From NCBI GenBank assembly GCA_026004195.1, contig BPIQ01000001.1:1540311-1604310 (forward strand): DNA of 64,000 nt, written 5' to 3'. The stretch comes from Candidatus Binatia bacterium (GTDB lineage Bacteria; Desulfobacterota; Binatia; HRBIN30; BPIQ01). The position numbers and the translations under genes are program-made. Below, piece after piece: positions 4,979 to 54,726 of the stretch (position 1 is the stretch's first letter; each line of letters starts with the position of its first letter). The notes beneath the pieces are model-generated. The model was not told the DNA's origin. It did no database searches and was given only the letters and a program-made list of their open reading frames with translations.

Positions 4979-4989
4979 GCCTGCTTCCG

Positions 4990-9476: not shown

Positions 9477-12365
9477 CCCGCAGGGATTTTCTCCGCTCGG
9501 TGGGCGCCGGTGGGCTCGTCCTGGGGCTCGGCCGGCTCGAGTTGGGCTGCACGGGAGAGCGCGGGCCGGAGCCCGCCGCCGTGCCGCGGGGCACGGGCGC
9601 CTCGTACCGGAGCTGGGAGGATGTCTACCGCCAGAAGTGGAGCTGGGACAGGGTCGTCCGGAGTTCCCACTTCGTCAACTGCTGGTACCAGGCCCACTGC
9701 GCCTGGGACGTTTACGTGAAGGACGGACTCGTCTGGCGCGAGGAGCAGGCGGCGGATTATCCCCGCGTCCGCGCCGACACGCCGGACCTGAACCCGCGGG
9801 GCTGCCAGAAAGGCGCCTGTTACAGCGCCCGGATGTACGACCCCACGCGGCTCAAGTACCCGCTCAAGCGCGTGGGGGAACGCGGGTCCGGCCGGTGGGA
9901 GCGGCTTTCCTGGGATCGAGCGCTTACGGAGATCGCCGACCACATCCTCGACACGATCGTCGAGGAGGGAACCGACCGGGTGATCTGGTCCCTCGGGCCG
10001 CTCTACACCTTCGGCACGCTCGCCGCCGGTCAGATGCGACTCGCCCATCTCCTCGACAGCTGCTCCCTCGACATGAACACGGAAATCGGCGACGGGCATC
10101 CGGGTGCGGCCGTGACCTTCGGAAAAATCGTGGCGGAGCGCTCTCTCGACGATTACTTCTTTTCCGACCTGATCCTCGTCTGGGGTTGCAACCCCCTCTA
10201 CACCCAGATCCCCAACGCCCACTTCTGGACCGAAGCCCGCTACCACGGCGCGGAGATCGTCGTGATCACGCCCGACTACAACGCGTCGGCCATCCACGCG
10301 GACCTCTGGGTGCCCGTGAACCCCGGCAGCGACGCGGCGCTCGGCCTCTCCATCGCCCAGGTGCTGCTCGCCGAGAACCTCTACGACCGCGCGTTCGTCC
10401 TCGAGCAGACCGACCTCCCCTTCCTCGTGCGCACCGACAACGGTCGCTTTCTGCGCGAAAGCGACCTCCGCGAGGGCGGCTCGACGGAGGTTCTCTACGT
10501 GTACGACCTCGCCACGGGCGCTCCGGCACCCGCGCCGCGGGAGACGCTGTCCCTCGGAAAACTCCGGCCGGCTCTCGACGGCACGTACGAAGTCCGGACG
10601 AAAACCGGGCCCGTGCGCGTGCGTCCCGTCTTTTCGCTCCTCCGGGAACTTCTCGACCGAGACTACACGCCCGAAAAGACGGCTTCCGTCACCGGCGTGC
10701 ATCCGTCTCTCGTTCGCTCCCTCGCGAGGAAAATCGGCCGGGCGCGCGCCGTCTCGAACGTCACCTCGAGCAACATCGGGAAGTTCTACCACGGGAACCT
10801 GATGGAGCGGGCGCAGATCCTCGTCTTCGCGCTCTCGGGGAACATGGGAAAAAGGGGCAGCGGCTTCAGCGCGTTTCCGTTTCTCACGCACGACGGCCTC
10901 GAGTCCTTCGCCCTCATGCGCCGAACGGGCTGGCTCGGGCGGATCGAGCTCGCCGCGAGGGTCTGGCCGCTGCTCCGGCGGCTCCGGAAACCGGGCATGA
11001 CGGACGAGATGCTCGCTTACGAAATCGGGCACGAGCAGCTGCGGCAAGGCCGCACGGTCTCGGGCGTGCTTTTCTGGAACGTGCACGGGGGGCTCCTCGA
11101 ACTGAGCGGGCGCTCCCACGAGTGGGACCCCTATCTCCGGAGACCCGTCGCCGAGTACCTCCGAGAAGCCCTCGAGAAGGGCTACCAGTTCGTGTGGCCG
11201 CCGCCGGGCAAGCCGCCGCGGGTCGTGATCGAGTACGGCGGCAACATCCTCCGCCGGCTGCGCGGCTACCCGTACGTCGTGCGCCACCTCTACCCGAAGC
11301 TCCGCGCCTTCGTCACGGTCGACTGGAGGATGACGTCGACGGCGCTCTTTTCGGACTACGTCCTGCCGGCGGCGGGCTGGTACGAAAAATACGAGCACAA
11401 GTGGGCGACGCCGCTCGTGCCCTACCTCCACGCGGGCTCGCCCGGCGACGAAACTCCACGAGGCGAAAACGGACTGGGAGATCTGCGCCCTCCTCGCGAA
11501 AAAGATCGAGGAGAGGGCGCGCGCACGGGGGCTGCGGAAATTCCGGACCCGCAGCGGCGAGGAGCGGTCTTTCGAAGGGCTCCACGACGAATTCACGATG
11601 GGTGGGCGCTTCACGGAGCGCGACGAGCGGAAGGTGGCGGCCGAGCTCGTCGCTCTCTCGACGAACCTCGAAGGCACGACTTGGCGAGAGCTCGAAAAAA
11701 AGGGCTACGCGCGCTTCACGGGCACGGGGCGCAGCGCTCTGTCGATCGGAAACGCGTGCCCCATCGAACCGGACGACACCATCCGGCCTTTCCGCGACCA
11801 CGTGGAGAAGAAAGTCCCGTACCCGACGCTCACCCGCCGCATCCAGTTCTACATCGACCATCCTTTCTACCTCGAGCTCGGGGAAGCCCTGCCGGTGCAC
11901 AAGGACCCGCCGAAGGCCGGCGGTGACTACCCGCTCGTCCTCACGGGCGGGCACACCCGGTGGTCGATCCACGCGGCCTGGCGGGACGACCGTCTCATGC
12001 TGCGGCTTCAGCGCGGGATGCCCGTGGCTTACATGAACCCCGAAGACGCCCGGCGGCGCCGCATCCGGGACGGCGACCTCGTACGGGTATGGAACGACAT
12101 CGACGGTTTCGTCATCCAGGCCAAGCTCTCGCCTTCCGTGCGCCCGGGCCAGCTCATCGTCTACCACGCCTGGGAGAACTACCAGTTCCCGGAGGGCAAG
12201 GGGTTCCAGAACCTGATCCCGAGTCCCCTGAACCCCGTCGAGCTCGCCGGCGGCGAAGGACACATCCGGCCCATCCAGATCTGTCTTCAGCCGAGCCAGA
12301 ACGACCGGGACACGCGCGTCGAGGTCGCGCCGCTCGAGGCGTCGGGGGAAACACGGGCTTCCTAG
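9467..12365 (+). CDS. Molybdenum dehydrogenase catalytic subunit, class II DMSO reductase family (copy 2), with a 1-base frameshift
   Basis: GTG 9467 overlaps the end of copy 1 by 10 bases. A Tat signal (TRRDFL) opens the product, followed by the same YRSWEDVYRQKWSWD block and a class II Fe-S site reading His68-x3-Cys72-x5-Cys78 with Cys113. The spacing differs from copy 1. The frame is broken near 11441-11443: removing one C from CCC joins HAGSP to ATKLHEAKTDWE and gives 965 residues, almost the same as copy 1. The rest runs in the other frame to TAG 12363-12365 and includes the GGHTRWSIHA and YHAWENYQFPEG cofactor-binding blocks. Either this is a sequencing error or the gene is a recent pseudogene. 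The natural substrate is unknown; a hydrocarbon or sterol side chain is inferred. Confidence 0.85.
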
Positions 12366-29578: not shown

Positions 29579-30573
29579 GGCCGGGGAGCGACGCGGAGCA
29601 CGATCTTCCCGAAGTGCTCGCCCGCCTGCATGGCGCGGTGTGCCTCGGCGACCCGCTCGAGCGGAAGCACACGGTCGAGGACCGGCCGGAGCCTGCCGGC
29701 CCGCAAGGCCTCGCCGAAGCGCTTTTCGAAGGCTTCGACGATCGCCGCTTTTTCTTCGTTGGAGCGGCCCCGCAGCGTGGAGCCGATCACGGAGAGTCTC
29801 CGCACCAGGAGCGCCGCGAGGGAAAGCTCGGCCTTGGCACCCCCGATGAGACCGATCACCACGAGACGGCCCCCCTCGCCGAGGGCGTCGAGGTTCTTCG
29901 AGAGGTACGCCGCCCCGACGCAGTCGAGGACGACGTCGACGCCCCGGCCTCCTGTCCGCTCGCGGGCGACCGAGACAAAGTCGCCCGTACGGTAGTTCAC
30001 GGCCGCTTCGGCTCCGTGCTCGATCGCGCGCCGGCATTTTTCGTCCGTCCCTGCCGTCACGATCACCCTCACGCCCGCCTCCCTGCAGAGGCCGATCGCA
30101 GCCGTGCCGACACCGCTGCCCCCACCGTGCACGAGGACGACCCCTCCGCGAGACGCTCCACCGAGGAGAAAGATGTTGAGAAACGCCGTGAGGAAAACCT
30201 CGGGAAATGCACCCGCCTCCTCGTCGGTCATGCCCTCGGGAACCGCGAGCACCGACCCTTCGTCCACCACGGCTTCCTCGGCGTAACCCCCTCCCGGGAG
30301 GAGCGCCATGACCCGGTCGCCGGGCTTCCACCGGCGGACCTCGCTCCCGACCTCCAAGACCTCGCCGGCGCAGTCGAGCCCCAGGACGGGCGTCACCCCG
30401 GGCGGCGGGGGATAGAGGCCCTGTCGCTGCAGAAGGTCGGCACGGTTCACGGACGTCGTCCGAACGCGGATTCTCACGTCACGGGGCCCGACGGAGGGAC
30501 GGGGGACTTCGTCGATTCGGAGAACGTCCTCTCCCCCCGGGCGGTCGAACACGACGGCACGGATGGTCGTCAT
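29575..30573 (-). CDS. Zinc-free MDR-type quinone oxidoreductase
   Basis: A 332-residue medium-chain dehydrogenase/reductase. Landmarks: TTSVNRADLLQRQGLYPPPPGVTPVLGLDCAGEVLEVG (the NRADLLQRQG form marks the quinone-oxidoreductase / PIG3-like branch), the GGGSGVGTAAIGLCREAG dinucleotide loop near residue 150, and a late GKIVLRV. The zinc-binding Cys/His set of alcohol dehydrogenases is absent. It should reduce quinones or enones with NADPH. The TetR gene starts upstream on the same strand, with 103 bases between. Confidence 0.9.
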   Translation of the reverse strand: MTTIRAVVFDRPGGEDVLRIDEVPRPSVGPRDVRIRVRTTSVNRADLLQRQGLYPPPPGVTPVLGLDCAGEVLEVGSEVRRWKPGDRVMALLPGGGYAEEAVVDEGSVLAVPEGMTDEEAGAFPEVFLTAFLNIFLLGGASRGGVVLVHGGGSGVGTAAIGLCREAGVRVIVTAGTDEKCRRAIEHGAEAAVNYRTGDFVSVARERTGGRGVDVVLDCVGAAYLSKNLDALGEGGRLVVIGLIGGAKAELSLAALLVRRLSVIGSTLRGRSNEEKAAIVEAFEKRFGEALRAGRLRPVLDRVLPLERVAEAHRAMQAGEHFGKIVLRVAPRP

Positions 30574-30676
30574 GGCTTTTGCCCTCCCCGCCTCTCGGTG
30601 CCCCGAGCCCGCGGGGGCGCCGCTTGCGCGCCGCCGGGCCCTCCGATCGGGCACGACCTCGGTGAGCCCGCGCGCC

Positions 30677-31372
30677 TCATACCGCCCCCACCCGCCGCCT
30701 CCGGACGGTCACGGCAGGCGGTTCTGCGGGCGGTGCCGCCGAAGCCCTCGGCCCGAGGAGGTAGTTTTCGAGAAGCCGCACGAGCTCGGAGCGGAACTCG
30801 GGCTTCTCGAGAAGCTCGGACTGCCGGAGCGTGAGCGCCTGGGCGATCCCCTGGAGGACCTGCACGACGAGCACGCTCGCGATTTCGGGGTGCTCCACGG
30901 CGAGCTCGGAGCTCCGCTCTTCGATGAGTTCCCGTGCCACGTCCACGCCCCGGTCGTGAAGCTCGAGAAGACGGCGGCGGAAAAGGGCGTCGGGGTGCGC
31001 GCCCTCGAAGAGGACCCGGTGGAGCGCCGGGTCGACCCGGTGGGCGTCGAGAAGCGCGTCGACGAGGGCACGCAGGAGTTCCGGCACGGGCGCGTGTCTC
31101 TTTTCCCGGACCCGCCGGAGCACGGCCCCGAAGGTCTCTTCCATGTGTCGTTCGGCGAGCGCGAGGAGGATCGCGTCCTTCGACGGAAAATACTGGTAGA
31201 GCGAACCCACCGAAACGCCGGCCTCCTCGGCGATGAGATTCGTGCTCGTCCCGGCGTAACCGCGCGCGGAAAAAACGCGAGCGGCCGCCTGCAAAATCGC
31301 TTCGACCGTCCGGCGGCTCCGTTCCTGGCGAGGCCGTTTTCTCGGCCGAAATCGTCTCGGGGTCCGCTGCAC
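30677..31372 (-). CDS. TetR-family transcriptional regulator
   Basis: A 231-residue regulator from GTG 31372. The N-terminal HTH is typical: RSRRTVEAILQAAARVFSARGYAGTSTNLIAEEAGVSVGSLYQYFPSKDAILLALAERH (about residues 18-75). The C-terminal ligand domain is helical and unassigned, and the last 20 residues are Pro/Arg-rich. It diverges from the diiron gene at 31463; a palindrome lies between the -35 and -10 boxes of that gene, so it is the natural candidate for its repressor, and for its own. Confidence 0.93.
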   Translation of the reverse strand: MQRTPRRFRPRKRPRQERSRRTVEAILQAAARVFSARGYAGTSTNLIAEEAGVSVGSLYQYFPSKDAILLALAERHMEETFGAVLRRVREKRHAPVPELLRALVDALLDAHRVDPALHRVLFEGAHPDALFRRRLLELHDRGVDVARELIEERSSELAVEHPEIASVLVVQVLQGIAQALTLRQSELLEKPEFRSELVRLLENYLLGPRASAAPPAEPPAVTVRRRRVGAV

Positions 31373-31396
31373 GAACGTGGTCCTCCGGAATGCGAG

Positions 31397-31426
31397 TTGA
31401 AGAATGCGAGCTTTTGCTCGTATAAT
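31397..31426 (+). promoter_or_regulatory. Promoter with embedded operator for the diiron gene
   Basis: TTGAAG (31397-31402) and a perfect TATAAT (31421-31426) are 18 bases apart. In the spacer lies CGAGC-TTTT-GCTCG (31407-31420), an inverted repeat covering the space up to the -10 box. GAATGCGAG also occurs twice as a direct repeat (31388-31396 and 31402-31410). A repressor bound here would block the polymerase. Confidence 0.65.
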
Positions 31427-31462
31427 ACGATCGACACGAAGTCAACGAGAGGAGGCTTCTCC

Positions 31463-32554
31463 ATGGCAGTCGCGTACAGGGACATCGAACTCCCCGCAGC
31501 GGGCCCGGTAGAAACCGTGCCGGCGAAGGTCGGCACGACCTTCAACTGGGACTACAAGGTCAAGCGCGAAGAGCTCCTGCGCCTTTACGAAAAGGGAAAG
31601 CGGGCCCAGTGGAACGCCAGCACCGACATCGACTGGTCGATCGACGTGGACCCCGAGCGGACACGCCCCGAGGCCGCCGACGTCTTCGACGAGGTTCTCC
31701 AGCCGCCCGAGAAGCTCGACCTCGCGATGCGGCGGAAGCTCAACCACCACATGGACGCGTGGATGCTCTCCCAGTTCCTGCACGGGGAGCAGGGCGCACT
31801 GCTCGCGACGGCGCGGATCGTCGAGACCGTGCCGTGGCTCGAAGCGAAACTCTACGCGTCGAACCAGGTGGCCGACGAGGCGCGCCACGTGGAGGTCTAC
31901 CGCCGCTACCTCACCGAAAAGCTCGGGCTCAGCTACCCCGTGAACCGGCACCTCGACACGTTGCTCAAGCAGATCGTCGAAGATTCGCGCTGGGACATGA
32001 CGTATCTCGGCATGCAGATCATGGTCGAGGGGCTCGCGCTCGCGGCTTTCGCGCTCATGCGGTTCACCCGCGCCGACGAGCCGCTGCTGCAACAAATCAC
32101 GACTGCCGTGATGCGTGACGAGGCGCGGCACGTCGCCTTCGGCGTCCTTTCGCTCGAGGACCTCTACACGAAAGAGCTTTCGTCCACGGAGCTGAGAGAA
32201 CGCGAGGAGTTCGTGATCGAGGCCACCGTGCTCATGCGGGACCGTCTCCTCATGGAAGAGGTGTGGGAACGGGTCGGTCTCGACCCGAAGCTCTGGCTTC
32301 CCTGGTCGCTCCGCACCCCTTTCATGGTCGGGTTCCGGCAGATGCTGTTCTCCAAGATCGTCCCGAACCTCCGCCGGCTCGGCCTTCTCACGCCCCGCGT
32401 GCGGGAGAAGTTCGCCGAGATGGATCTCCTGCAGTTCGAGAACATGCCCGACTCGACGCAGGTCGAGGAGACGGCCATGCCGCCTGCGCTGGCTGCTTTC
32501 TTCGCGTACCTGCAGAAATCCGGGGTACCGGTTCCGGGCCTTTCGTCGAACTGA
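31463..32554 (+). CDS. Ferritin-like diiron protein (putative oxygenase/oxidase)
   Basis: A 363-residue helical protein with the two-pair carboxylate/histidine set of diiron enzymes: Glu109 (LHGEQG), Glu139xxHis142 (DEARH), Glu189 (MVEG) and Glu220xxHis223 (RDEARH). An upstream element AQWNASTDIDWSID (about residues 48-61) is shared with the two proteins at 44-46.5 kb. The fold is that of ribonucleotide reductase R2-like or bacterial monooxygenase-like proteins, but there is no R2 radical-tyrosine or reductase partner visible here. GAGAGGAGG precedes ATG 31463. TetR control is suggested by the divergent gene and operator. The substrate is unknown. Confidence 0.87.
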   Translation: MAVAYRDIELPAAGPVETVPAKVGTTFNWDYKVKREELLRLYEKGKRAQWNASTDIDWSIDVDPERTRPEAADVFDEVLQPPEKLDLAMRRKLNHHMDAWMLSQFLHGEQGALLATARIVETVPWLEAKLYASNQVADEARHVEVYRRYLTEKLGLSYPVNRHLDTLLKQIVEDSRWDMTYLGMQIMVEGLALAAFALMRFTRADEPLLQQITTAVMRDEARHVAFGVLSLEDLYTKELSSTELREREEFVIEATVLMRDRLLMEEVWERVGLDPKLWLPWSLRTPFMVGFRQMLFSKIVPNLRRLGLLTPRVREKFAEMDLLQFENMPDSTQVEETAMPPALAAFFAYLQKSGVPVPGLSSN

Positions 32555-41627: not shown

Positions 41628-42908
41628 TCAGTCCGACTGACGCAGGGTCTGGAGCGTGAAGTGGTTCTCGGGAAAACGGCGTTCGATGAAGTGGGAGGTG
41701 TACCGTCCCCCGAAAGCGGCACGGTCCGTCTTGTCGTTCACGCCGATCACGATGTCGTTGGCGACGGCCGTGAACGTGCCGTCGTCTTTGCGCGCGAAGT
41801 GGTGCCCGCAAGCCGCGTTGTAGAAGTACTCGCCCGCACGGTTGTACACGAGCTTCCAGTGGATCTGGAAAAGCTCCTTGTCGAAGTAGAACACCGACTT
41901 CGAGAAATTGTACTCGGGGTCGTTCGACTCTCCCTCGACGATCCAGACCTTTCTCGGGACGTACACGAGGTGCTCGGCGACGAGCCACGGGGCCCCCTTG
42001 GCTCCCGGGGTTTCGTAGACCCCTTTCATGTACGGGATGTCGACGGCAAAGCGCGTCTCCGTGACCGGACGCATGGGGAAGGCATAGGGTCCCAGTACCG
42101 GTGCCAAGACTTCGCCCTCGCCGACGAGCTTCCAGTCGTAGTATTCGACCTTGCCCGAGTAGCAGTTTCCGTCCTCGGCGAAGATGTCCATGCCTGCGAT
42201 CGGATCCGAGCGTGTGGCCGAGTTGAGCCGGCGCACGCGACGGGTCGCGGGGATGTAGCCCCAGATCTTGTCGTTGCTGTACCAGTCGTTTTTCCGGAGC
42301 GCGAGAAAACTCACGCCCTCGATGTCCTTGGGCTCGTGGAGAAAGACCATGGCCGCGCTCCGCAAGCCCTGGGGGTTGGGGATCGGGCCACCGTGGCGGC
42401 CGAGGTAGGTCATCACGTGGATCCCCACCTTGATGTGCCGGAACTCTCCCCCGCGGTCGATCCCGTTGATCGTGAAGGTGGCACCGCCACCTTCGCCCTG
42501 CATGCTCGCCGCGACGAAGTTCCAGGCGATCTTGCACCCCGCCCGGGGATCGTCCTTGGAGATCCTCGGGAACGGAAGCCCGAAGAAGAACTCGGGCATT
42601 TTCCCCGTCGCACGATCCACGAGCCCGCAGACGTCCGGCGCCAGGTCGTACTTCCCGTCGTTGGCTTCGCTCGCTTGCCAGAATCGCTCGGAGTAGTTCC
42701 GGCGGAAGCGAGCGGGGTCGACCTCGTGCACCCGGAACCAGTAGTCGCCCTTTTTCACCCGCTCGAGGACGGGAGGCGGCAAAAGCCCCTCGGCGATCTC
42801 CCAGTTGTTCTGGTCGAGAAGCCAGGTTTTGTCCGAAGCTCCTCTCGCCGTGGTTCCGGCGAGCGCCAAAAGGGACAGGGCGAAAAGGATACGCGAGCAG
42901 CGGAGCAC
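41628..42908 (-). CDS. DUF1329 outer-membrane lipid-related protein
   Basis: A 426-residue exported protein from GTG 42908; TTG 42995 is a longer but weaker start. The signal peptide is LRCSRILFALSLLALAGTTARGA. The family blocks are TWLLDQNNWEIAEGLLPPPVLERVKKGDY, GIHVMTYLGRHGGPIPNPQG (loosely), IPATRRVRRLNSATRSDPIAGMDIFAEDG and WIVEG, which match DUF1329 proteins of the outer-membrane lipoprotein-sorting (LolA/LolB-like) fold. DUF1329 genes often occur beside hydrocarbon or sterol uptake genes, and this genome encodes sterol-like catabolism at 1-12 kb. Transport of a hydrophobic compound is an inference. Confidence 0.85.
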   Translation of the reverse strand: MLRCSRILFALSLLALAGTTARGASDKTWLLDQNNWEIAEGLLPPPVLERVKKGDYWFRVHEVDPARFRRNYSERFWQASEANDGKYDLAPDVCGLVDRATGKMPEFFFGLPFPRISKDDPRAGCKIAWNFVAASMQGEGGGATFTINGIDRGGEFRHIKVGIHVMTYLGRHGGPIPNPQGLRSAAMVFLHEPKDIEGVSFLALRKNDWYSNDKIWGYIPATRRVRRLNSATRSDPIAGMDIFAEDGNCYSGKVEYYDWKLVGEGEVLAPVLGPYAFPMRPVTETRFAVDIPYMKGVYETPGAKGAPWLVAEHLVYVPRKVWIVEGESNDPEYNFSKSVFYFDKELFQIHWKLVYNRAGEYFYNAACGHHFARKDDGTFTAVANDIVIGVNDKTDRAAFGGRYTSHFIERRFPENHFTLQTLRQSD

Positions 42909-44253: not shown

Positions 44254-45357
44254 TCAGGTCGCGAGGAGAAATTCCCCGAGTCGGCTGCGCTCTCGCCTCT
44301 CGAGCCCGGCCTTGCGGAGCCGGGCAAAGAGCTCGGCGAGGACCTTTTCGTAGGTAGCGCGGACGGCCTCGACACCACGGGCCAGGCTCTCGCGGTCGAG
44401 TCCTCCGCCGGAGAGAACCACGAGGGGCTCGAAGAGCTCGGGGCTCGCCGCGACGCCGAAGAGAGCGTGCTCGGTACGGTCGAGGTATTCCTGGAGCGCT
44501 TCCGCCTCGCGGGGCTGGTGCTCGAGGTGGTAGCGGATGTGGGCCACACCGTAGGCGAGCTGCCGCGCGGTGTCCTGTGCCGCGAGGCGGAATAGCCTCT
44601 CTTCGAGCCGCCGCCGGGCTACGGCGCCCGCGTGCCGGTAGACCCCGAAGACGAGGCTCCCGAGGAGCAGGTTACAGCCGAGCGAACCTTCGGGGTACGT
44701 GTCCGAGCAAAGGAGCTCCTTGAGTGCCTGCTCCGCCGTGGGGCTCGCCCTCTTGAGGCCCTCGCCGCCGGCGAGCGCGCGCTTCCGGAAGGCGTCCACG
44801 TGACGTGCGTGGTCGAGCATCTGCGCGCAGAGGTAGCTCTTGAGCTCCAGGAACTCCTGGTTGATCGAGAAAATCCAGCGGGAGGGAAATTCGAGCAAGA
44901 CGAGCTCCACCTCCTCGAGGAACGTACAGAGCTGGCCCATCGCCGCTTCCAGCTCCCGGGGCAAGGGGTTCTCCCGAGCCTCGTTCCACGGAAGGTCGAC
45001 CGCCGGTGCCCAGCGCCGGGACTTGGCTTCTTCGTAGAGAAGGGCCACGTTCGGCGCCCAGACGTCGCTCTTGCGGTTGATCGTGTACCCCAGGTCCGGC
45101 AGGTCCGGGACGAGCTCCGAGCCCCGGGCGGCCATGCTGTACCGGTCGCGCACGAACTCGGGAGTGGAGTCGTACCCGTAGGAGCCGACGTTGCAGTCCT
45201 CGTAGGTGAAGCCCCTGCGGGGGTCGCGAGGGGTGCACCGGACTTTTTCCGTGCGGGCGTCGTACCACGAGAGCGTGAGGTCGCCCGAGAAGACGCGCTG
45301 CTGGAGCGCGAGGAGCTCCGGGTCCTCGAAGAAGTTCTTTTTTCCGAAGTACGCCAC
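44254..45357 (-). CDS. Ferritin-like paralogue with lost diiron ligands (putative partner subunit)
   Basis: A 367-residue protein from GTG 45357, alignable end to end with the upstream diiron protein: both open with a NFFEDPE/YFFEDKD-like element, then (L/D)LSW..ARTEKV.C.P..PRRG and YGY...E.VR. Of the ligands, Glu in LEEVE and His186 remain, but Glu184 of the partner is His183 (MLDHARH), Glu234 is Gly233, and the second ExxH motif (DEARH) is DTARQ, so Glu and His are Thr263 and Gln266. It cannot bind a normal diiron centre. It starts 19 bases after the partner's stop, as expected for a structural or regulatory subunit of a heteromer. Confidence 0.85.
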   Translation of the reverse strand: MAYFGKKNFFEDPELLALQQRVFSGDLTLSWYDARTEKVRCTPRDPRRGFTYEDCNVGSYGYDSTPEFVRDRYSMAARGSELVPDLPDLGYTINRKSDVWAPNVALLYEEAKSRRWAPAVDLPWNEARENPLPRELEAAMGQLCTFLEEVELVLLEFPSRWIFSINQEFLELKSYLCAQMLDHARHVDAFRKRALAGGEGLKRASPTAEQALKELLCSDTYPEGSLGCNLLLGSLVFGVYRHAGAVARRRLEERLFRLAAQDTARQLAYGVAHIRYHLEHQPREAEALQEYLDRTEHALFGVAASPELFEPLVVLSGGGLDRESLARGVEAVRATYEKVLAELFARLRKAGLERRERSRLGEFLLAT

Positions 45358-45376
45358 GCGCCGTCGGGTCGTGACC

Positions 45377-46510
45377 TCAGGCCGCGGCCGCCATGCCGGC
45401 GCGGGCCATCTCGGTCGCCATGTAGAGCTTCGACCGCTCCCGCCGCTCGGGAAGCCCGCACTTGTCGAGCCGCTCGAAGTACTCGTCGATCTGCTTGAGG
45501 TTGAACTGCGCCGTGATCCGCAGCCCCTGTTCGATGTTCTCCTTCTTGAGTCCCTTGCCCGCCAGGATGATGAAAGGTTCGAAAACCTCGGTGGCGTAGC
45601 CGCCGCCGAAGACGAAGTTCTCGGCCTCGTCGAGGTGGCGGTGGATGATCTCGCGCTTTTCGGGGAAGTGGTCGAGCACCCACTTGAGGTGCTGCATCCC
45701 GTACCCCACGTGCCGCGCCTCGTCCTGCATGACGAGGCGGAAGATTTTCTTGTCGGCTTCGGTGGGACTGATGTACTCGCTGAAGCGGAAGAGCGTGAGC
45801 ACCATCCCCTCGGCCTGGAGGTGCAGCGTGAGGGAAGTTTCCGCGAAGCTGTCGGCGTCACGGAGGAACTTCAGGTTGTGCTCGTTGGCCCAGCTCGCCT
45901 TCATGAGACCCCAACCGGTGAGCAGCGCCCGCTTGCGGAAGACCTCCGTGTGACGAGCCTCGTCCATGGCCTGGGTCGCGATGAAGTTCTTCACCTCGAA
46001 GAAGTCCGCGTTGAGCCGCCCGAGCCACTTGGCCGGGACGTCCGTCGCGATCATCTCGACCTCGGTGAGGAACGTGAGCAGCTGGGCGTACGCCTTGCCG
46101 ATTTCTTCGGGCAGCTCCTGCCGGGCGATTTCCTCCCACGGAATGTCGGTCGTCGCATTCCATTGCCGCGTCATCGCTTCCTCGTAGTAGCCCTCGATGT
46201 TGTAGGCCCAGACCTCGCTCTTCCGGTTGACTTCCGCCTGGATGTCCGGACACCCGGGCGGGATCTCCGCCCCGCGCGGCGCGAAGCTCCGGTTCTCGCG
46301 GACGAGCTCGGGCATCTGCGTGAAGCCGTAGGAGCCCACGTCGAGGTCCCGGAACGTGAGACCGCGACGCGGGTTCGAAGGCGCACAGGCGACCTTCTCG
46401 GTCCTCGCGTTCATCCACGAGAGGTCGAGCTCGCCCGTCCGCATCGTGTAGAGGTAGCGGTCGACGAAGTCCTTGTCCTCGAAAAAGTACCGGGTGCTGA
46501 GATAACTCAT
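45377..46510 (-). CDS. Ferritin-like diiron protein, catalytic candidate of the SCP2/diiron operon
   Basis: A 377-residue helical protein with a complete ligand set: Glu150/Glu152 (TEVEMI), Glu184xxHis187 (MDEARH), Glu234 (QAEG) and Glu264xxHis267 (MQDEARHVGYG). A preceding element RQWNATTDIPWEEI (about residues 115-128) is shared with the diiron protein at 31.5 kb. The first 90 residues form an extra N-terminal region found only in this protein and its paralogue. Its ATG overlaps the SCP2-like stop (ATGA), so translation is coupled. It probably activates O2 for hydroxylation or desaturation of a lipid-like substrate; that is inferred from the SCP2 partner. Confidence 0.87.
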   Translation of the reverse strand: MSYLSTRYFFEDKDFVDRYLYTMRTGELDLSWMNARTEKVACAPSNPRRGLTFRDLDVGSYGFTQMPELVRENRSFAPRGAEIPPGCPDIQAEVNRKSEVWAYNIEGYYEEAMTRQWNATTDIPWEEIARQELPEEIGKAYAQLLTFLTEVEMIATDVPAKWLGRLNADFFEVKNFIATQAMDEARHTEVFRKRALLTGWGLMKASWANEHNLKFLRDADSFAETSLTLHLQAEGMVLTLFRFSEYISPTEADKKIFRLVMQDEARHVGYGMQHLKWVLDHFPEKREIIHRHLDEAENFVFGGGYATEVFEPFIILAGKGLKKENIEQGLRITAQFNLKQIDEYFERLDKCGLPERRERSKLYMATEMARAGMAAAA

Positions 46511-46998
46511 GAGGGCCCCTCCTGCGCTGCCCTCGCCTCGGCGGGGAGCGAGGGCAGGTCGAAATCCACCGAACTCGCGAGGTCGAAGAATTCCTGCACG
46601 CTCTCGGCGAACCGGTAGAGCTTGTCGTGCCCGTCGGGGTCGTCGTAGAGGACGCGGAGTTTCTCGCCGAAGTGCGTGAGTGTGTTGATGCTGTGGGCTA
46701 CGTCGGCTCTTCCGTTTTCCTTGATGTTGCGGAACATCTCCGCCCACGCGCCGATGTCACCGGCCAGGACGAAGTCGAGGTTCTCGGAAAGAACGTCGGG
46801 AGACTCGCGTACTTCGACGCAGTCGAAGACCTCGAAGCCCAGCACGAAATCCCGCCGGCCCCCGGGCACTCTCGGGTCGAAGACGCGGATGCCGAAGCGC
46901 GTGTCGAAATACCCCAGTCGCTCGAAGCGGCTTCTCGCCTCCTGCATCTTCTGGCGCAGAGCCTCGAAAAATTCGAGCGAAGGGAAAGAAACTTTCAC
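46507..46998 (-). CDS. SCP2-like (sterol carrier) protein, first gene of the diiron operon
   Basis: A 163-residue protein from GTG 46998. The order of elements matches SCP2-like domains: a helix ([24 protein letters not shown]), strands RFGIRVFDP and [15 protein letters not shown], then [23 protein letters not shown], like the SCP2 'G..W..m..' hydrophobic turn, and a last helix [18 protein letters not shown]2 domains bind acyl-CoA or sterols in a hydrophobic tunnel. The family match is by pattern and length, so it is moderate. Its stop overlaps the ATG of the diiron protein, and its start faces nth across 45 bases. Confidence 0.65.
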
Positions 46999-47023: not shown

Positions 47024-47043
47024 GCGTAAGTGTAGGAAAGGGC

Positions 47044-47730
47044 GTGGGAGCGGTCAAGGACGTTCGGGCCCGAGCGGGCCGGTTTCCCATCCGGAAGGTT
47101 CTTTCCATCCTGCGAAAGGAGTCGTCCCGGTGGAACGCGCCCGTCGTCACGGCCTTCGCGCGGCATCTCCGGGACCCGTACCGCGTGCTCGTCGGCTGTC
47201 TTCTGAGCCTCCGGACCAAGGACGAAACCACGGGCCCGGCCTGCGAGCGGCTTTTCGCCCTCGCCTCGACTCCGGAAGAAATGGTCCGACTTTCTCCCCG
47301 CACGATCGAAAATGCCATCTTCCCGGTGGGTTTCTACCGCACCAAGGCCCGGACCATCCTGGAGATCTCGCGCACTCTGATCGAGCGGTACGGGGGAAAG
47401 GTCCCCGACGACCTGGACGAGCTTCTTTCCTTGAAAGGCGTCGGTCGAAAGACCGCGAACCTGGTGCTGACCGAAGGTTTCCGAAAGCCGGGGATCTGCG
47501 TGGACACGCACGTGCACCGGATCTCGAACCGCTGGGGATTCGTGCGTACGAAGAACCCCGTGGAAACCGAAGCCGCCCTCCGGCGCGTTCTGCCCAAGCG
47601 GTACTGGATCGAGTACAACGCGCTGCTCGTGGCCTTCGGTCAGACGATCTGCAAGCCCACTTCGCCCCTCTGCAGCCGGTGTCCCGTCGAGCAGTACTGC
47701 GCGAAGGTGGGAGTGCGCAGGGCCCGGTGA
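47044..47730 (+). CDS. nth: Endonuclease III (DNA glycosylase/AP lyase)
   Basis: A 228-residue HhH-GPD glycosylase. [16 protein letters not shown] contains the hairpin and catalytic Lys, and [16 protein letters not shown] carries the catalytic Asp. The C-terminal [4Fe-4S] ligands follow the Cx6Cx2Cx5C pattern ([17 protein letters not shown]). It removes oxidised pyrimidines from DNA. GTG 47044, preceded by AGGAAAGG, is preferred; the frame is open farther upstream, but that part overlaps the SCP2-like gene antisense. Confidence 0.93.
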
Positions 47731-48244: not shown

Positions 48245-51200
48245 ATGGAACACGCACCGATGACACCGAAGCGGGTTTCGTTGGGCTGGCCCGCAGCAGG
48301 GGATTCGGAGGAAAAGGCTGCGGCTCTTCCCGTTCTCGGCGTTCTTTTCCTTCTTCTCCTCCAGCTTCTCGCGCCCGGTCCCGCCCGGGCCCAGGACTGC
48401 CAGCTCGTCGAAGGCCGGCGCCTGAAGGTCGTCGACTCCGAGAACGACCTCCGCGACAGAGTCGTCTGGCGCGCCGTCGAGCGCCGGGGCGGCATCCTGA
48501 TCGACGACCCCACGCAGGGCACCACGGTCATCGAGCTCTTCGACGCCACGGGACTCGTCCTGCGCGCCCAGACCGACCCGACGAACGCCGAGGGATGGTA
48601 TTCGAACCGCCGGGGTACGCGCTGGGTCTACCGCGAAAGAAAAGACCCCGCAGGCGGAAACGGCCTGGCCCGCATCGCAAGCCGCACCACGTCTTTCTAC
48701 GTCCGCGGCAAGGGCCCTGCCCTCGACGAAGTCCGCGCTCCGCTCGTGCTCCCCGCCACGGTGCGCGTGACGACCTCGGCCGGACGCTGCCTCGAGTCCG
48801 TCTTCGTGGGCTGCAAGCGCAACGACGACGAGCGAGTCGTCTGCCGAGAATCGCTCCTGCCCCCCACTCCCACCCCCACTCCTTCGGCCACGCCCACCGC
48901 CACCGCCACCTCCACACACACCTACACGCCTCACCCACGACTCCGACCGTCCACACCCCGAGCTTCACCCCCACGCCTACCTACACCCACACGCCGACCC
49001 CCACCTGTCCCTCCGACCCACACCCCGAGCCCCACACCCGCCTCCACCCCTTCCGCCCTCCCCGCCTTCCCCGGTGCCGAAGGGTTCGGGGCCACGACCG
49101 TGGGCGGACGCGGTGGCGTGATTCTCAAGGTGACCAACCTGGCCGATTCCGGCCCCGGTTCCCTGCGCGCAGCCATGGAAGCCGAAGGGCCGCGCATCGT
49201 GGTCTTCGAGGTGGGCGGGGTAATCGACCTGAAGAAAGACATTCGGGTCGCGTCTCCGTATCTCACCGTGGCCGGCCAGACCGCCCCCGGCGATGGTGTG
49301 ATCTTACGCAATGCCGGCATCCGCATCACCAGCACCCACGATGTCATCATCCGTGGACTTACCATCCGCCCCGGCGACAATCCCGAAGGCCAACGGCCCG
49401 GCGTGCGGCGCGCCATCACCATCTGGGGTAGCCCGGAAGCTCCGTCCTACAACATCGTCGTCGACCACAACTCCCTGAGTTGGTCCACCGACGAGGTCGT
49501 CGGCGTCGGTTTCGCTCGGGATGTGACGTTCCAGTACAACATCGTGAGCGAGCCGCTGCACAACAGTCTGCACCAGGAAGGGGCACACGGCTACGCCTTC
49601 GCACTGTACGCGCAGGATCCCATGGACCGGATCAGCGTGCACCACAACCTCATCGCGCATGGATACAACCGCAATCCGCAGTACGCCAACGGCGTGGACG
49701 GCGAGGCGGTGAACAATCTGATCTACAACTGGGGGAACAACGGTCTGACGGTGAGAGCGGACGTCCTGCTCAACATCGTCGGAAACCATTTCATCGCCGG
49801 CCCGGATACGCCGGCCGAGAGCCGCGGGGTGATCATCGGTTGCCCTGACGGGGATTGCGGCACGACCCGGGTGTACGTTCGGGACAATCTCGGGCCGTTT
49901 CGTCCCACCGACAGCGGCGACGAGTGGCTGGTGGTAGATGGCGACGAGCAGTATCGCAGCGACGTTCCGGTCGGGACCCCCTCCGGCGTCACCGTGGACC
50001 CGCCGGAGGCGGTCTACGCCAAGCTCACCGGCGCCACGGGGGCAGGCAATTTCACCCTCGCTCGCGGGCGTGACGCGGTGGATCGGCGCATCCTGGCCGA
50101 ACTCGAGGCGCGTGGGGGTGGGATCCGCGACTGCGTGGATGCCGACCCGATTTACTATCCCCAGGGCCAGGTCCAGGGCGCCACGTCCACCACCGTCACC
50201 GTCGAGCACCACCCTGGCGACACCCAACAGGGGCCGAACCCACAGAACGAACACACGTACGATGGCAACAGCATCGAAATCACCAGCGGTGCGGCTAGAG
50301 GCCAAGTACGGGACGTCGCGCGCTTCGATCCCGAAACCAACGTGGTGACGGTGGACCGCCCCTGGGACGTGATCCCCGAGGTGGGAGCGGACTACCGCTT
50401 CATCATCCACTGCGACAACAACGCCGGCGGCTGGCCGACGTATACCACCACGTATGACGCGCCGGCAGACAGCGACGGCGACGGCATGCCGGACGACTGG
50501 GAGACGGCCCACGGGCTGAATCCCGACGTGTACGACGCCAACGGCAAGGACCTCAGCCCGGAGGGCTACGACAACGTCGAGGTCTACATCAACAGCCTGA
50601 TCCCCCCACCGAGCGGGACATCGACGCCGATCCCCGACCCTACGACCCCGACTGCCACGCCCACTCCCGAGGCGAGCTCCGAGCTGGATTTCCTCACCTT
50701 CTCCATCAACGTGCAGGACTTCGCTTACCCCGAAGAGAGCATCGCCGTCCTGCACGAGATCGTCGACCTGCACGAAGCGCACGACGTACCCGTGGACGTT
50801 TTCCTGACCGCGACCATGGCGGACCTGTTCGCCGATCGGGCACCGGAGCTGCTCGAGCGGCTCGTGTCGTCTCCCGTCGTCGCCGTCTCCTACCACGTGC
50901 GCCCACCCAAACCCTACTACCCCGGCTACGATTGGGCGGGGCTCGGCGAGATGTCCCCCGAAGACCAGTACGAGACCATCAGGAATTACGAAACGCACGG
51001 TCTCGATCCGGTCACCGGGCAACCGACCGCCGACCCTGGCGGATACCAGTGGCTCGCGCAGCAGCTCGGATACAGCCCCTACATCATCGGAGTTCTGGCA
51101 GGCGGGGAAGTCGGCAGGTCCGCCCGCGCGGTCTTCGGAGACCTCGGCGCTTCTTTGGCGGTCGTTCACGGCCGAGCCGTCAATCTGGGCGAAACGCTCG

Positions 51201-52363
51201 ATGGCCTCCTTCTCAAGCCGGAGCACTACGACCTGCGCCTTTTCCAGCACGTGGGACAGGATGCGGCCGACATCGTAGAAGACGCGCTCGCCCAGGCGCG
51301 CAGCGCCGGCGGTGCGCACCCCCCGTACTTCGTCGGCGTCAAAATGCACGACAACGACTTTTTTGCCGAGCGAGCGGCCTGGCTCACGGTGTACATCGAC
51401 GGCGGCCGGCGACCACCCTGGAACCCCGACCTGAAGTCGGCCCTGCTCTCCGACGAAGCGCGGGAGCAAATGTGGTCGCTCTACGAATCCACCGTCGCCT
51501 ACGCCGACTCCATCCGCGACCGCGTCGCGCCCGTCAACGCGCCCATGATCCTGGCGCTCCAAGAAGAGGCGCCACCCGAGCACACCGAGACGCTTCTTTA
51601 CATCTCCGGCACCATGCACATCGAAAACAGACGTCGCACCTGGCCCGATCCCGACGCCTTGATCGCGTTTCTCCAACGCGCGACGGCGACCGGGATGCGC
51701 TGGTCGGTCGGGGCGGACATCGACTGGCTCGAGCAGGAACCTCGTGCCGGCGAGATCATCCGCGCCACGGAAGCGCTGGGCGTCGAATGGGACGTGCACA
51801 CGCACGATCTCGCCGATCGAGCCGCGGCGGCCTCCCGAATCGCGGAGCTCGGCGGGCATCCGACGAACGTCGCGTCCGGGTTGCTCGTCTGGGAGATCGA
51901 CGTGCTGCGCGAACCGCTCGCGGCAAGCGACGGCTACGTGTGGCAGGCCGGGGTGCTCTGGGGCATTTCCGGGCTGACCGGGGACATCGGACACCAGGGG
52001 GGCAACGACGATACCTCCATCGGGCTCTGGCGGCCGGCCAGCGCGGCCGAGTACACCACACACGACCCCGACGGCGCACTGATCGCCGTCGGCAGCGGCA
52101 CGCGCGACAACCTGGCCCAGATCGAAGCGCTCGCCGAGGCCATCGCCGCGGGCGAGGACTATCCGCCCGTGCTGAGCGTGAGCATCATGGCGCAGCCGGC
52201 CACGCTCCGGACGCCGGCCTCGGGCGAAGGGATCGACGCCATCGAAGCCTGGGCCCGTCGTCTCTCGGATCTGCCGTTCGTCCGGTGGGCGACGATCGCA
52301 GAGACGGCCGCGGCCTGGGAAGCGGCGGGTGCACCGCCGAGTCGGATGGAGGTGTGGCCGTGA
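48245..52363 (+). CDS. Large secreted modular protein: pectate-lyase-like beta-helix plus a deacetylase-like C-terminal region
   Basis: A 1372-residue protein. A signal peptide (LPVLGVLFLLLLQLLAPGPARA|QD) is followed by an N-terminal module (about residues 50-210) with two pairs of cysteines, then a Thr/Pro linker (about 212-270). From AFPGAEGFGATTVGGRGG (about 272) a PL1-type right-handed beta-helix runs to about 730, with VVDHNSLSWSTDEVV as its core. A calcium-type loop DSDGDGMPDDWE lies near 742-775. The final 560 residues (from about 815) hold two stretches that resemble NodB-type deacetylase barrels (VDVFLTATMADLF; MRWSVGADIDW), a low-confidence guess. The linker carries a local frame switch. 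The C-terminal half looks different in codon choice from neighbours. Confidence 0.85.
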   Translation: MEHAPMTPKRVSLGWPAAGDSEEKAAALPVLGVLFLLLLQLLAPGPARAQDCQLVEGRRLKVVDSENDLRDRVVWRAVERRGGILIDDPTQGTTVIELFDATGLVLRAQTDPTNAEGWYSNRRGTRWVYRERKDPAGGNGLARIASRTTSFYVRGKGPALDEVRAPLVLPATVRVTTSAGRCLESVFVGCKRNDDERVVCRESLLPPTPTPTPSATPTATATSTHTYTPHPRLRPSTPRASPPRLPTPTRRPPPVPPTHTPSPTPASTPSALPAFPGAEGFGATTVGGRGGVILKVTNLADSGPGSLRAAMEAEGPRIVVFEVGGVIDLKKDIRVASPYLTVAGQTAPGDGVILRNAGIRITSTHDVIIRGLTIRPGDNPEGQRPGVRRAITIWGSPEAPSYNIVVDHNSLSWSTDEVVGVGFARDVTFQYNIVSEPLHNSLHQEGAHGYAFALYAQDPMDRISVHHNLIAHGYNRNPQYANGVDGEAVNNLIYNWGNNGLTVRADVLLNIVGNHFIAGPDTPAESRGVIIGCPDGDCGTTRVYVRDNLGPFRPTDSGDEWLVVDGDEQYRSDVPVGTPSGVTVDPPEAVYAKLTGATGAGNFTLARGRDAVDRRILAELEARGGGIRDCVDADPIYYPQGQVQGATSTTVTVEHHPGDTQQGPNPQNEHTYDGNSIEITSGAARGQVRDVARFDPETNVVTVDRPWDVIPEVGADYRFIIHCDNNAGGWPTYTTTYDAPADSDGDGMPDDWETAHGLNPDVYDANGKDLSPEGYDNVEVYINSLIPPPSGTSTPIPDPTTPTATPTPEASSELDFLTFSINVQDFAYPEESIAVLHEIVDLHEAHDVPVDVFLTATMADLFADRAPELLERLVSSPVVAVSYHVRPPKPYYPGYDWAGLGEMSPEDQYETIRNYETHGLDPVTGQPTADPGGYQWLAQQLGYSPYIIGVLAGGEVGRSARAVFGDLGASLAVVHGRAVNLGETLDGLLLKPEHYDLRLFQHVGQDAADIVEDALAQARSAGGAHPPYFVGVKMHDNDFFAERAAWLTVYIDGGRRPPWNPDLKSALLSDEAREQMWSLYESTVAYADSIRDRVAPVNAPMILALQEEAPPEHTETLLYISGTMHIENRRRTWPDPDALIAFLQRATATGMRWSVGADIDWLEQEPRAGEIIRATEALGVEWDVHTHDLADRAAAASRIAELGGHPTNVASGLLVWEIDVLREPLAASDGYVWQAGVLWGISGLTGDIGHQGGNDDTSIGLWRPASAAEYTTHDPDGALIAVGSGTRDNLAQIEALAEAIAAGEDYPPVLSVSIMAQPATLRTPASGEGIDAIEAWARRLSDLPFVRWATIAETAAAWEAAGAPPSRMEVWP
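48300..48911 (+). repeat. N-terminal cassette, copy A
   Basis: About 612 bases match 52571-53182 at a constant offset of 4271 with no indels and few substitutions, including synonymous positions. It encodes the signal peptide, the N-terminal module and the start of the Thr/Pro linker. Confidence 0.9.
49008..49140 (+). repeat. Linker-end/catalytic-start cassette, copy A
   Basis: About 133 bases are identical or nearly so to 53381-53513. They encode the last part of the linker and AFPGAEGFGATTVGGRGG plus ILKVTNL. Beyond 49140 the two genes diverge sharply. Confidence 0.9.
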
Positions 52364-52512: not shown

Positions 52513-54726
52513 ATGAGGGAGCACCCGGGGAACAAACGGAGAGCGAGTTTCGTGGTATCGGCCCGCAGCGGGGATTCGGAGGAAAAGGCTGCGGCTCTTC
52601 CCGTTCTCGGCGTTCTTTTCCTTCTTCTCCTCCAGCCTCTCGCGCCCGGTCCCGCCCGGGCCCAGGACTGCCAGCTCGTCGAAGGCCGGCGCCTGAAGGT
52701 CGTCGACTCCGAGAACGACCTCCGCGACAGAGTCGTCTGGCGCGCCGTCGAGAGCCGGGGCGGCATCCTGATCGACGACCCCACGCAGGGCACCACGGTC
52801 ATCGAGCTCTTCGACGCCACGGGACTCGTCCTGCGCGCCCAGACCGATCCGACCAACGCCGAGGGATGGTATCTCAACCGCCGCGGCACCCGCTGGGTCT
52901 ACCGCGAGAAAAGAGACCCCGCAGGCGGAAACGGCCTGGCCCGCATCGCAAGCCGCACCACGTCTTTCTACGTCCGCGGCAAGGGCCCCGCCCTCGACGA
53001 AGTCCGCGCTCCGCTCGTGCTCCCCGCCACGGTGCGCGTGACGACCTCGGCCGGACGCTGCCTCGAGTCCGTCTTCGTGGGCTGCAAGCGCAACGACGAC
53101 GAGCGAGTCGTCTGCCGAGAATCGCTCCTGCCCGCCACTCCCACCCCCACTCCTTCGGCCACGCCCACCGCCACCCCTACCTCCACCCACACCACACGCC
53201 TACCTGGACTCCGACCGCCACACCGACCCACACGCCAACGCACTCCCACACGCCGACCCATACCTTCACACCCACACCGAGCTTCACCCCCACGCCCCAC
53301 CTACACCCACACCCCGACTCCCACCCATACCCCCACGCTTTCTCCCACGCCCACGCACACCCACACCCCGACTCCCACCGTCCCTCCGACCCACACCCCG
53401 AGCCCCACACCCGCCTCCACCCCTTCCGCCCTCCCCGCCTTCCCCGGTGCCGAAGGGTTCGGGGCCACGACCGTGGGCGGACGCGGTGGCGTGATTCTCA
53501 AGGTGACCAACCTCGATGCCGACGGCCCGGGTAGCCTCCGCGCCGCACTCGAAGCCGAAGGGCCACGCATCGTCGTCTTCGACGTCGGCGGGACGATCGA
53601 CCTCGGCGGCGAAAGCATCATCGTGCGCAACCCGTTCCTCACGGTCGCGGGGCAGACGGCGCCGGGCGACGGCATCCTCGTCAAGAACGGCGAGATCGAC
53701 ATCCGCACCCACGACGTCGTGATCCGCGGGCTCCGCATTCGGGTGGGCGACATCCCGAACCAGAGTCCTTCTCAGATCCTCCGCGGCATCAACATCACGG
53801 GAAACAACGCGTACAACATCGTCGTCGACCACAACTCGATCTCGTGGGGGCGCGGCGGGAACCTTTACGTCCTCAACGGCGCGCGCGACGTGACGTTCTC
53901 CTGGAACATCGTGGCCGAAGCGCTCAGGATCGAAGGCTCGAAAGGCATCACGCACCACAGCACGGCCGGAGGGAACATCTCGAGCCACCACAACGTGCTC
54001 GTGAGCAACAACCAGAGAAATCCCCAGATCCGCTCCCCCCAGAACGTCGTCGCGAACAACCTGGTTTACAACTACGGCCAGCGGGCCATCGAGCTTCTCC
54101 TCATGCCGGGTGACACGGCCGATGTCCGCGCGAACGTCTTCCTGCCCGGTCCCTCCACGGCCACCTGGCCGGACTCGACCTACGTGAAGGGAATCTACGT
54201 TCTTTACGCCGAGGAGCCGGACACGGGAGAGATCGGCACGGTACCGAACTCGATCTTCCTCGAGGCGAACATCGGGCCCGGAAGGGAAGTCGTGCAAACC
54301 ACGTCGCTCGAAGAGGAGTGGCTCGCCGTCGACCACGATCCCGAAATCACGCAGGACGTCCTCGTCGCCACGCCCTTCCACGACGGCGCCGGCATCACGA
54401 TGGACCCGCCCGAAACCCTGCAAGACCTGCTCCTCGACGCAAAGGGCGCGGGCGCCATCGTGCCCTACCGTGACCCGGTGGACGAGCGTGTGATCGCCTC
54501 GATCCAAAACGGAACCGGGCAGATTCTCCTCTCGCAGGACGAGGTGGGCGGCTGGCCCGAGATGTCCGGGGGCACTCCCCCCGTCGACACCGACGGGGAC
54601 GCCATGCCCGACGACTGGGAGCTCGCTCGCGGGCTCGACCCCACGGACCCCGAGGACCGCAACGGAGACCTCGACGGCGACGGTTACACCAACGTCGAGG
54701 AGTACCTGAACGAGTTTTTCGAGTGA
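52513..54726 (+). CDS. Secreted pectate-lyase-like protein sharing the N-terminal cassette
   Basis: A 737-residue protein with a strong ribosome-binding site (GGGAGGAGTG). It has the same signal peptide and N-terminal module as the gene before it (to about residue 220), then a longer Thr/Pro/His linker (about 220-305) that contains a frame-switched stretch. From AFPGAEGFG (about 307) a PL1-like beta-helix follows with VVDHNSISWGRGG and ISSHHNVLVSNNQRNPQ, and the protein ends in a DTDGDAMPDDWE calcium-binding loop with a dockerin-like tail. Family proteins cleave pectate by beta-elimination, but whether this one is catalytic cannot be told. Its short length relative to the first gene comes from the missing C-terminal region. 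Confidence 0.88.
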   Translation: MREHPGNKRRASFVVSARSGDSEEKAAALPVLGVLFLLLLQPLAPGPARAQDCQLVEGRRLKVVDSENDLRDRVVWRAVESRGGILIDDPTQGTTVIELFDATGLVLRAQTDPTNAEGWYLNRRGTRWVYREKRDPAGGNGLARIASRTTSFYVRGKGPALDEVRAPLVLPATVRVTTSAGRCLESVFVGCKRNDDERVVCRESLLPATPTPTPSATPTATPTSTHTTRLPGLRPPHRPTRQRTPTRRPIPSHPHRASPPRPTYTHTPTPTHTPTLSPTPTHTHTPTPTVPPTHTPSPTPASTPSALPAFPGAEGFGATTVGGRGGVILKVTNLDADGPGSLRAALEAEGPRIVVFDVGGTIDLGGESIIVRNPFLTVAGQTAPGDGILVKNGEIDIRTHDVVIRGLRIRVGDIPNQSPSQILRGINITGNNAYNIVVDHNSISWGRGGNLYVLNGARDVTFSWNIVAEALRIEGSKGITHHSTAGGNISSHHNVLVSNNQRNPQIRSPQNVVANNLVYNYGQRAIELLLMPGDTADVRANVFLPGPSTATWPDSTYVKGIYVLYAEEPDTGEIGTVPNSIFLEANIGPGREVVQTTSLEEEWLAVDHDPEITQDVLVATPFHDGAGITMDPPETLQDLLLDAKGAGAIVPYRDPVDERVIASIQNGTGQILLSQDEVGGWPEMSGGTPPVDTDGDAMPDDWELARGLDPTDPEDRNGDLDGDGYTNVEEYLNEFFE
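52571..53182 (+). repeat. N-terminal cassette, copy B
   Basis: Second copy of the 612-base cassette at 48300-48911. It differs by scattered single-base changes but no gaps. Confidence 0.9.
53381..53513 (+). repeat. Linker-end/catalytic-start cassette, copy B
   Basis: Second copy of the 133-base block at 49008-49140. Confidence 0.9.

Follow-up and report, generated by a model that had tools for sequence, protein, structure and literature searches.

Gene organization of the locus

A cluster of three genes was identified on the minus strand of the window, the 64,000-nucleotide stretch of Candidatus Binatia DNA that was analysed as a whole. The genes encode a 163-aa SCP2-fold protein (P1; 46507..46998, GTG start), a 377-aa ferritin-like/R2-like dimetal protein with an intact ligand set (P2; 45377..46510, ATG start) and a 367-aa paralogue of P2 in which four of the six ligand positions are replaced (P3; 44254..45357, GTG start), respectively. 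P1 is the first gene of the operon. Its TGA stop codon overlaps the ATG of P2 in the sequence ATGA (46507..46510, minus strand), and a 19-nt spacer (45358..45376, minus strand) separates the P2 stop from the P3 start. All three open reading frames and their junctions are as described in the original prediction, and the start sites are consistent with those of homologues. A promoter-like site, TTGACC-17-TACACT (47029..47057, minus strand), lies about 30 bases upstream of P1; it is a match to the consensus only, and one such site was found in the region compared with 0.1 expected from shuffles.

P2 and P3 share 41% identity, in agreement with the paralogy proposed for them. The diiron ligand set claimed for P2 is complete (E152, E184, H187, E234, E264 and H267), and the two helix-4 ligands (E264 and H267) lie in an EARH motif (45710..45721, minus strand). 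P3 carries E, H, H, G, T and Q at the same columns, with the replacements E184H, E234G, E264T and H267Q (P2 numbering), as expected of a paralogue without a usable site.

The window also contains two tandem gene pairs on the plus strand. One pair encodes secreted proteins (48245-52360 and 52552-54723) with nearly identical N-terminal parts, different remaining parts, proline/threonine-rich linkers and no Pfam match, and looks like a recent partial duplication. The other pair (6591-9473 and 9467-11923) consists of overlapping open reading frames encoding molybdopterin oxidoreductase-like proteins with twin-arginine-type signals.

Distribution and gene neighbourhoods

Relatives of P2 with 71-85% identity were found in Binatia/'Deltaproteobacteria' MAGs. 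A P2 match at E <= 1e-20 is present in 67 of 148 genomes of the class, six of which contain only a relative of ~30% identity, and the remaining 61 genomes are exactly the 61 that have a P1 match. Co-occurrence in other genomes, as asked for in the original prediction, is strongly borne out for P1 with the core P2 family. Fisher's test gave p about 4e-35 when the six genomes with distant relatives were scored as discordant, a value that overstates independence because the genomes are related to one another. The module is seldom found beyond the class. It was detected in two of 297 genomes of the class of a Mycobacterium relative, one of which is the Mycobacterium MAG itself, and sampling of the other parts of that phylum yielded no members. 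In the Mycobacterium MAG (L057, 4411-10337) the module lies directly downstream of NiFe-hydrogenase-like genes. Public databases give Klebsiella pneumoniae as the organism of a Binatota-like contig (L045), which is apparently a mislabelled MAG.

P1 and P2 are side by side in the retrieved loci; the exceptions are loci at the ends of contigs and a small number of others (G012/L050, L058 and L059). No other genes are conserved throughout the neighbourhoods: P2 was kept at 38 loci and P1 at 31, and the next family at just 10. Several gene orders are found. Most modules have the order active > SCP2. The order of the window, SCP2 > active > dead, occurs in about 35 of the 37 genomes with a linked P3, while SCP2 > dead > active was found at L053-L055 and active > dead > SCP2 at L061, L066, L114 and L116. 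Across the neighbourhoods compared, no lipid-pathway gene was consistently linked to the modules, no biosynthetic genes were conserved around them and no reductase gene was conserved beside them, a ferredoxin gene being present in one clade only. DUF1329 and SDR genes were considered as conserved pathway partners and rejected, as they occur at few loci only. DUF1329 genes lie near the module at three loci, namely the window (41631-42908, minus strand), L051 and L102, the last of which was recognised by eye and directly follows a ferredoxin gene.

The ferredoxin clade comprises 12 rows of the P2 tree. A gene encoding a 2x[4Fe-4S] ferredoxin (Pfam Fer4) directly follows P1 in 11 of the 12 loci, and in the twelfth genome P1 and the same ferredoxin are located together on another contig (L118). 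A further locus (L119) is arranged in the same way, active > SCP2 > ferredoxin, and a biotin carboxylase gene comes next. Of all the observations, the presence of a ferredoxin within the module hints most clearly that the enzyme depends on an electron supply, in the way that oxygenases do. An extra open reading frame of 135-138 aa, SCP2-like by eye and without a Pfam match, is located beside the module in L057 and L118 (1214-2396).

Evolution of the modules

The P1 tree recovers the groups defined by P2 in five changes, which is the minimum possible. Two genomes (G019 and G034) each contain four modules of different groups, which indicates co-inheritance of cognate P1/P2 pairs and not just the species tree. 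A functional partnership of P1 and P2 is strongly supported. Chance neighbourhood of the trio is excluded by the recurrence of the same gene order in ~35 genomes of the class, by dN/dS of ~0.02-0.14 for all three genes, and by the co-occurrence and co-diversification of P1 and P2.

As judged from the P2/P3 tree, dead paralogues have arisen repeatedly within the P2 family, the dead label requiring four changes, all of which are forced by supported branches. Among the dead copies, those of the window type group in a single clade, and the active copies from these modules form its sister group. Other dead copies are those of L061/L115, those of L066/L114/L116 and the lone L065; owing to long branches, L061 and L066 cannot be placed exactly with certainty. 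The L065 module (6441-7529) contains two genes, and its sole diiron-type protein has K for E234 and Q for E264. This protein is either a lone dead copy or one with a different metal site.

The SCP2-fold protein P1

The AlphaFold model of P1, which was built from 17 sequences, has a pLDDT of 89 and shows the SCP2 alpha/beta fold. The best nine Foldseek matches of the model are all SCP2 structures, with 2cx7/1wfr at E about 1e-5. VIA-align superposed 126 residues on the Thermus SCP2 structure 2cx7 with Z 14.2 and an rmsd of 2.4, and further matches include the SCP2-type domains of alkylsulphatases, animal SCP2 and UbiJ. The entries 2cx7 and 1wfr also rank first when the P1 family profile is compared with PDB sequences, albeit weakly (2cx7, E 0.0023). 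With the Pfam SCP2 profile (PF02036), P1 and 27 family members all remained without a match, even at E values as high as 1, and hhalign of the P1 profile against two SCP2-type sequences gave nothing above an unrelated control. P1 is thus assigned to the SCP2 fold with a very divergent sequence, so that the SCP2-like nature first proposed for it holds at the level of the predicted fold and, weakly, of the PDB profile search, but not for the Pfam profile.

P1 would bind a hydrophobic substrate of the fatty-acyl, alkane or isoprenoid type and present it to P2. The main rival explanation, which is considered rather unlikely, is that P1 uses the SCP2 fold without lipid, as a coupling, regulatory or scaffold protein comparable to component B of methane/phenol monooxygenases or a docking factor. 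The polar character of the most conserved P1 residues (D120, D125, R129, Q135, N105 and H102), which are clustered in the C-terminal part, would fit a docking or coupling role, and the strict pairing and co-diversification with P2 are what one would expect of an obligate subunit more than of a general carrier. However, the well-matched structures are all SCP2 or SCP2-type domains that line a hydrophobic cavity, and substrate presentation by P1 is preferred.

The dimetal protein P2

The P2 model (pLDDT 88) is nearest to the structures of VlmB (Z 23.9), a Kitasatospora VlmB homologue (Z 23.8), cyanobacterial ADO (cADO; Z 23) and R2lox (Z 23), and the scores of VlmB, cADO and R2lox are tied within about 1 Z. 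In the profile search against PDB, a VlmB homologue (E 4e-11) ranks ahead of R2lox (E 8e-7). The six ligands are kept in 77 aligned active members. E152 was chosen as the first ligand in preference to E150 because E152 alone is invariant in the active members; in the alignment with R2lox it lands one residue off the ligand Glu of R2lox. The two columns of the R2lox cross-link (Val and Tyr; criteria taken from PMC3824934) are occupied in the active members by Ala in 75 of 77 and by His in 56 of 77, with no Tyr (A155 and H230 in most members). P2 is therefore not filed as R2lox, and its NCBIfam R2lox score of 27.8 bits is below the cut-off of 194. When an annotated relative was sought on plasmids, with the Mycobacterium P2 homologue as the query, a single weak match was obtained.

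The other diiron proteins of the source genome are more distant from P2 and are not accompanied by P1. A distant AurF-like diiron protein (PF11583, E 5e-7, just under the cut-off) is encoded 12 kb from the trio at 31460-32551 (plus strand), inside the open reading frame 30563-32551. In L042 the trio is followed by an AurF-like relative with a broken frame (4961-5656). Far from the trio, at about 436-438 kb of G000:C1, the source genome encodes two tandem short diiron-like proteins (L007, 1231-2148 and 2162-2926), both of which contain EARH and ERRH motifs.

VlmB, cADO and R2lox are O2-activating enzymes with hydrophobic or long-chain ligands, which supports the reading of P2 as part of an oxygenase with a hydrophobic substrate. 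P2 is presumably the O2-activating catalytic subunit, with O2 activation at a putative Fe/Fe or Mn/Fe site. The first rank of VlmB homologues in both profile and structure would also suit a natural-product tailoring oxygenase that carries out VlmB/AurF-like N-oxygenation or a similar reaction on a small hydrophobic amine or a carrier-bound substrate, not on bulk lipid. This explanation is improbable, as the neighbourhoods hold no conserved biosynthetic genes, the scores of the three enzymes are nearly tied, and the wide spread of the modules over families of one class, where a genome may contain several, is suggestive of a role in catabolism or core metabolism. Slightly less probable still is a P2 that acts as an oxidase, peroxidase or metal-handling protein of the rubrerythrin or RNR R2 type without oxygenating an organic substrate, P3 being a regulatory dummy. 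The single-sequence Pfam matches of P2 do include rubrerythrin and RNR R2, but they are weak, and profile and fold rank VlmB, cADO and R2lox first. A strict SCP2-fold partner would moreover be out of place in iron storage or ribonucleotide reduction, both of which were rejected because fold, partner and profile ranking disagree with them, and the ferredoxin suits an oxygenase. Oxygenation of a hydrophobic substrate by P2 is favoured.

The dead paralogue P3

In the three-gene modules of the window lineage, the helix-3 Glu and the helix-4 Glu are always lost, and the helix-4 His is nearly always lost too. The dN/dS values obtained from ten pairs of related loci were 0.055-0.127 for P3, 0.016-0.059 for P2 and 0.038-0.141 for P1, which places all three genes of the window lineage under purifying selection. 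P3 is not required in general, since most relatives are two-gene modules without a dead subunit. That P3 is a functionless decaying duplicate, with P1 and P2 alone of importance, is very improbable: type II modules do consist of P2 and P1 alone and P3 evolves faster than P2, but its dN/dS argues against decay, it is intact beside P2 in about 35 of 37 genomes of its type, and dead partners have repeatedly arisen beside such modules. The most likely role of P3 is that of a structural half in a pair with P2, a part that non-catalytic subunits play in yeast ribonucleotide reductase and in the bacterial multicomponent monooxygenases.

Proposed function and significance

The trio points to an undescribed oxygenase, which probably acts on oily molecules. 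On balance, even chances are given to a multicomponent dimetal oxygenase in which P1 holds and presents the hydrophobic substrate, P3 serves as the structural half and electrons are fed by a ferredoxin. The small Fe-S ferredoxin that would reduce P2 is encoded in the module in one clade and would be encoded elsewhere in the genome in the case of the window's trio. Whereas the genes, ligands, predicted folds, conserved linkage, co-diversification, constraint and repeated loss of the site in the partner are established, a physical complex, bound metal, use of O2, binding of lipid and the kind of substrate are inferred. The substrate may be a lipid or sterol that is handed from P1 to P2, as suggested in the original prediction. 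As a whole, that first interpretation is partly supported, the partnership being far better grounded than could be known from the sequence alone, unlike the substrate. Its heteromeric diiron enzyme is favoured by the conserved dead subunit and by the ferredoxin gene of one clade, but the dead paralogue is not a system-wide component.

No description of a module composed of an SCP2 protein and a diiron enzyme was found in the open-access literature. A broader proposal, which falls somewhat short of even chances, is that the modules represent an undescribed class of dimetal oxygenases with its centre in the candidate phylum Binatota. An obligate subunit with the SCP2 fold would feed the hydrophobic substrate to the active site of such an enzyme, and inactive partners would have evolved several times independently. 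The Binatota are uncultured and are inferred alkane degraders, and the published inventory of their alkane genes lists CuMMO, prmABC, alkB, CYP153 and ladA without mention of a system of the P1-P2 type (PMC8262859). If the proposal is true, a soluble oxygenase equipped with a subunit that holds its substrate would be an added route for oily substrates, and would put the SCP2 fold to a dedicated catalytic use that is rare in bacteria. The P3-type copies provide repeated cases for the study of why dimetal enzymes gain dead partners, and the two-gene module forms are small enough for direct expression and testing.

Comparison with known systems

The R2lox proteins (for example Geobacillus GkR2loxI and M. 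tuberculosis Rv0233) resemble P2 in the ferritin-like dimetal fold, in six ligands with Glu first, in an N-terminal 'LYEEA..W' motif and in a Z of about 23. They differ in the cross-link Val and Tyr, which P2 lacks, and in the NCBIfam R2lox cut-off, which P2 falls far under; no SCP2-fold or dead partner of R2lox is reported in the cited literature. One R2lox has been reported as a C10-C24 alkane monooxygenase (PMC10867098), and both alkane oxidation and a bound fatty acid have been described (PMC10867098, PMC6399176).

The best profile and structure matches of P2 are the azoxy synthase VlmB and a homologue of it from Kitasatospora that shows aldehyde-deformylating activity (8wvr, 6d9f). An identity of about 20% indicates distant kinship, and the genomic setting is different. 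To our knowledge, no SCP2-fold or dead partner is associated with VlmB-type enzymes.

Soluble methane monooxygenase and phenol hydroxylase show fold similarity to P2 at Z 21-22. Bacterial multicomponent monooxygenases combine active and dead ferritin-like subunits with a small partner protein and an iron-sulphur electron supply. The likeness in active and dead subunits is analogous, because the P3-type dead copies arose separately inside the P2 family. In contrast to these monooxygenases, the small partner here has an SCP2 fold and no reductase gene is linked to the modules. The structural matches of P1 are SCP2 structures, with no component B among the matches listed.

Active and dead halves are also combined in yeast Rnr2/Rnr4, in which Rnr4 is the dead half. 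In apicomplexan R2_e2, an active R2-type subunit is paired with a divergent non-canonical paralogue (PMC3824934). Unlike the trio, both are ribonucleotide reductases of eukaryotes without an SCP2-fold partner.

A precedent on the side of P1 is UbiJ, with which it aligns at Z 8.6 (UbiJ-SCP2). The SCP2 domain of UbiJ in the ubiquinone biosynthesis complex has been proposed to serve hydroxylases by binding the hydrophobic tail (PMC9499169, PMC6747719). UbiJ has a C-terminal coiled coil and serves a membrane-linked multi-enzyme complex, whereas P1 consists of the domain alone and has a single putative oxygenase as its partner.
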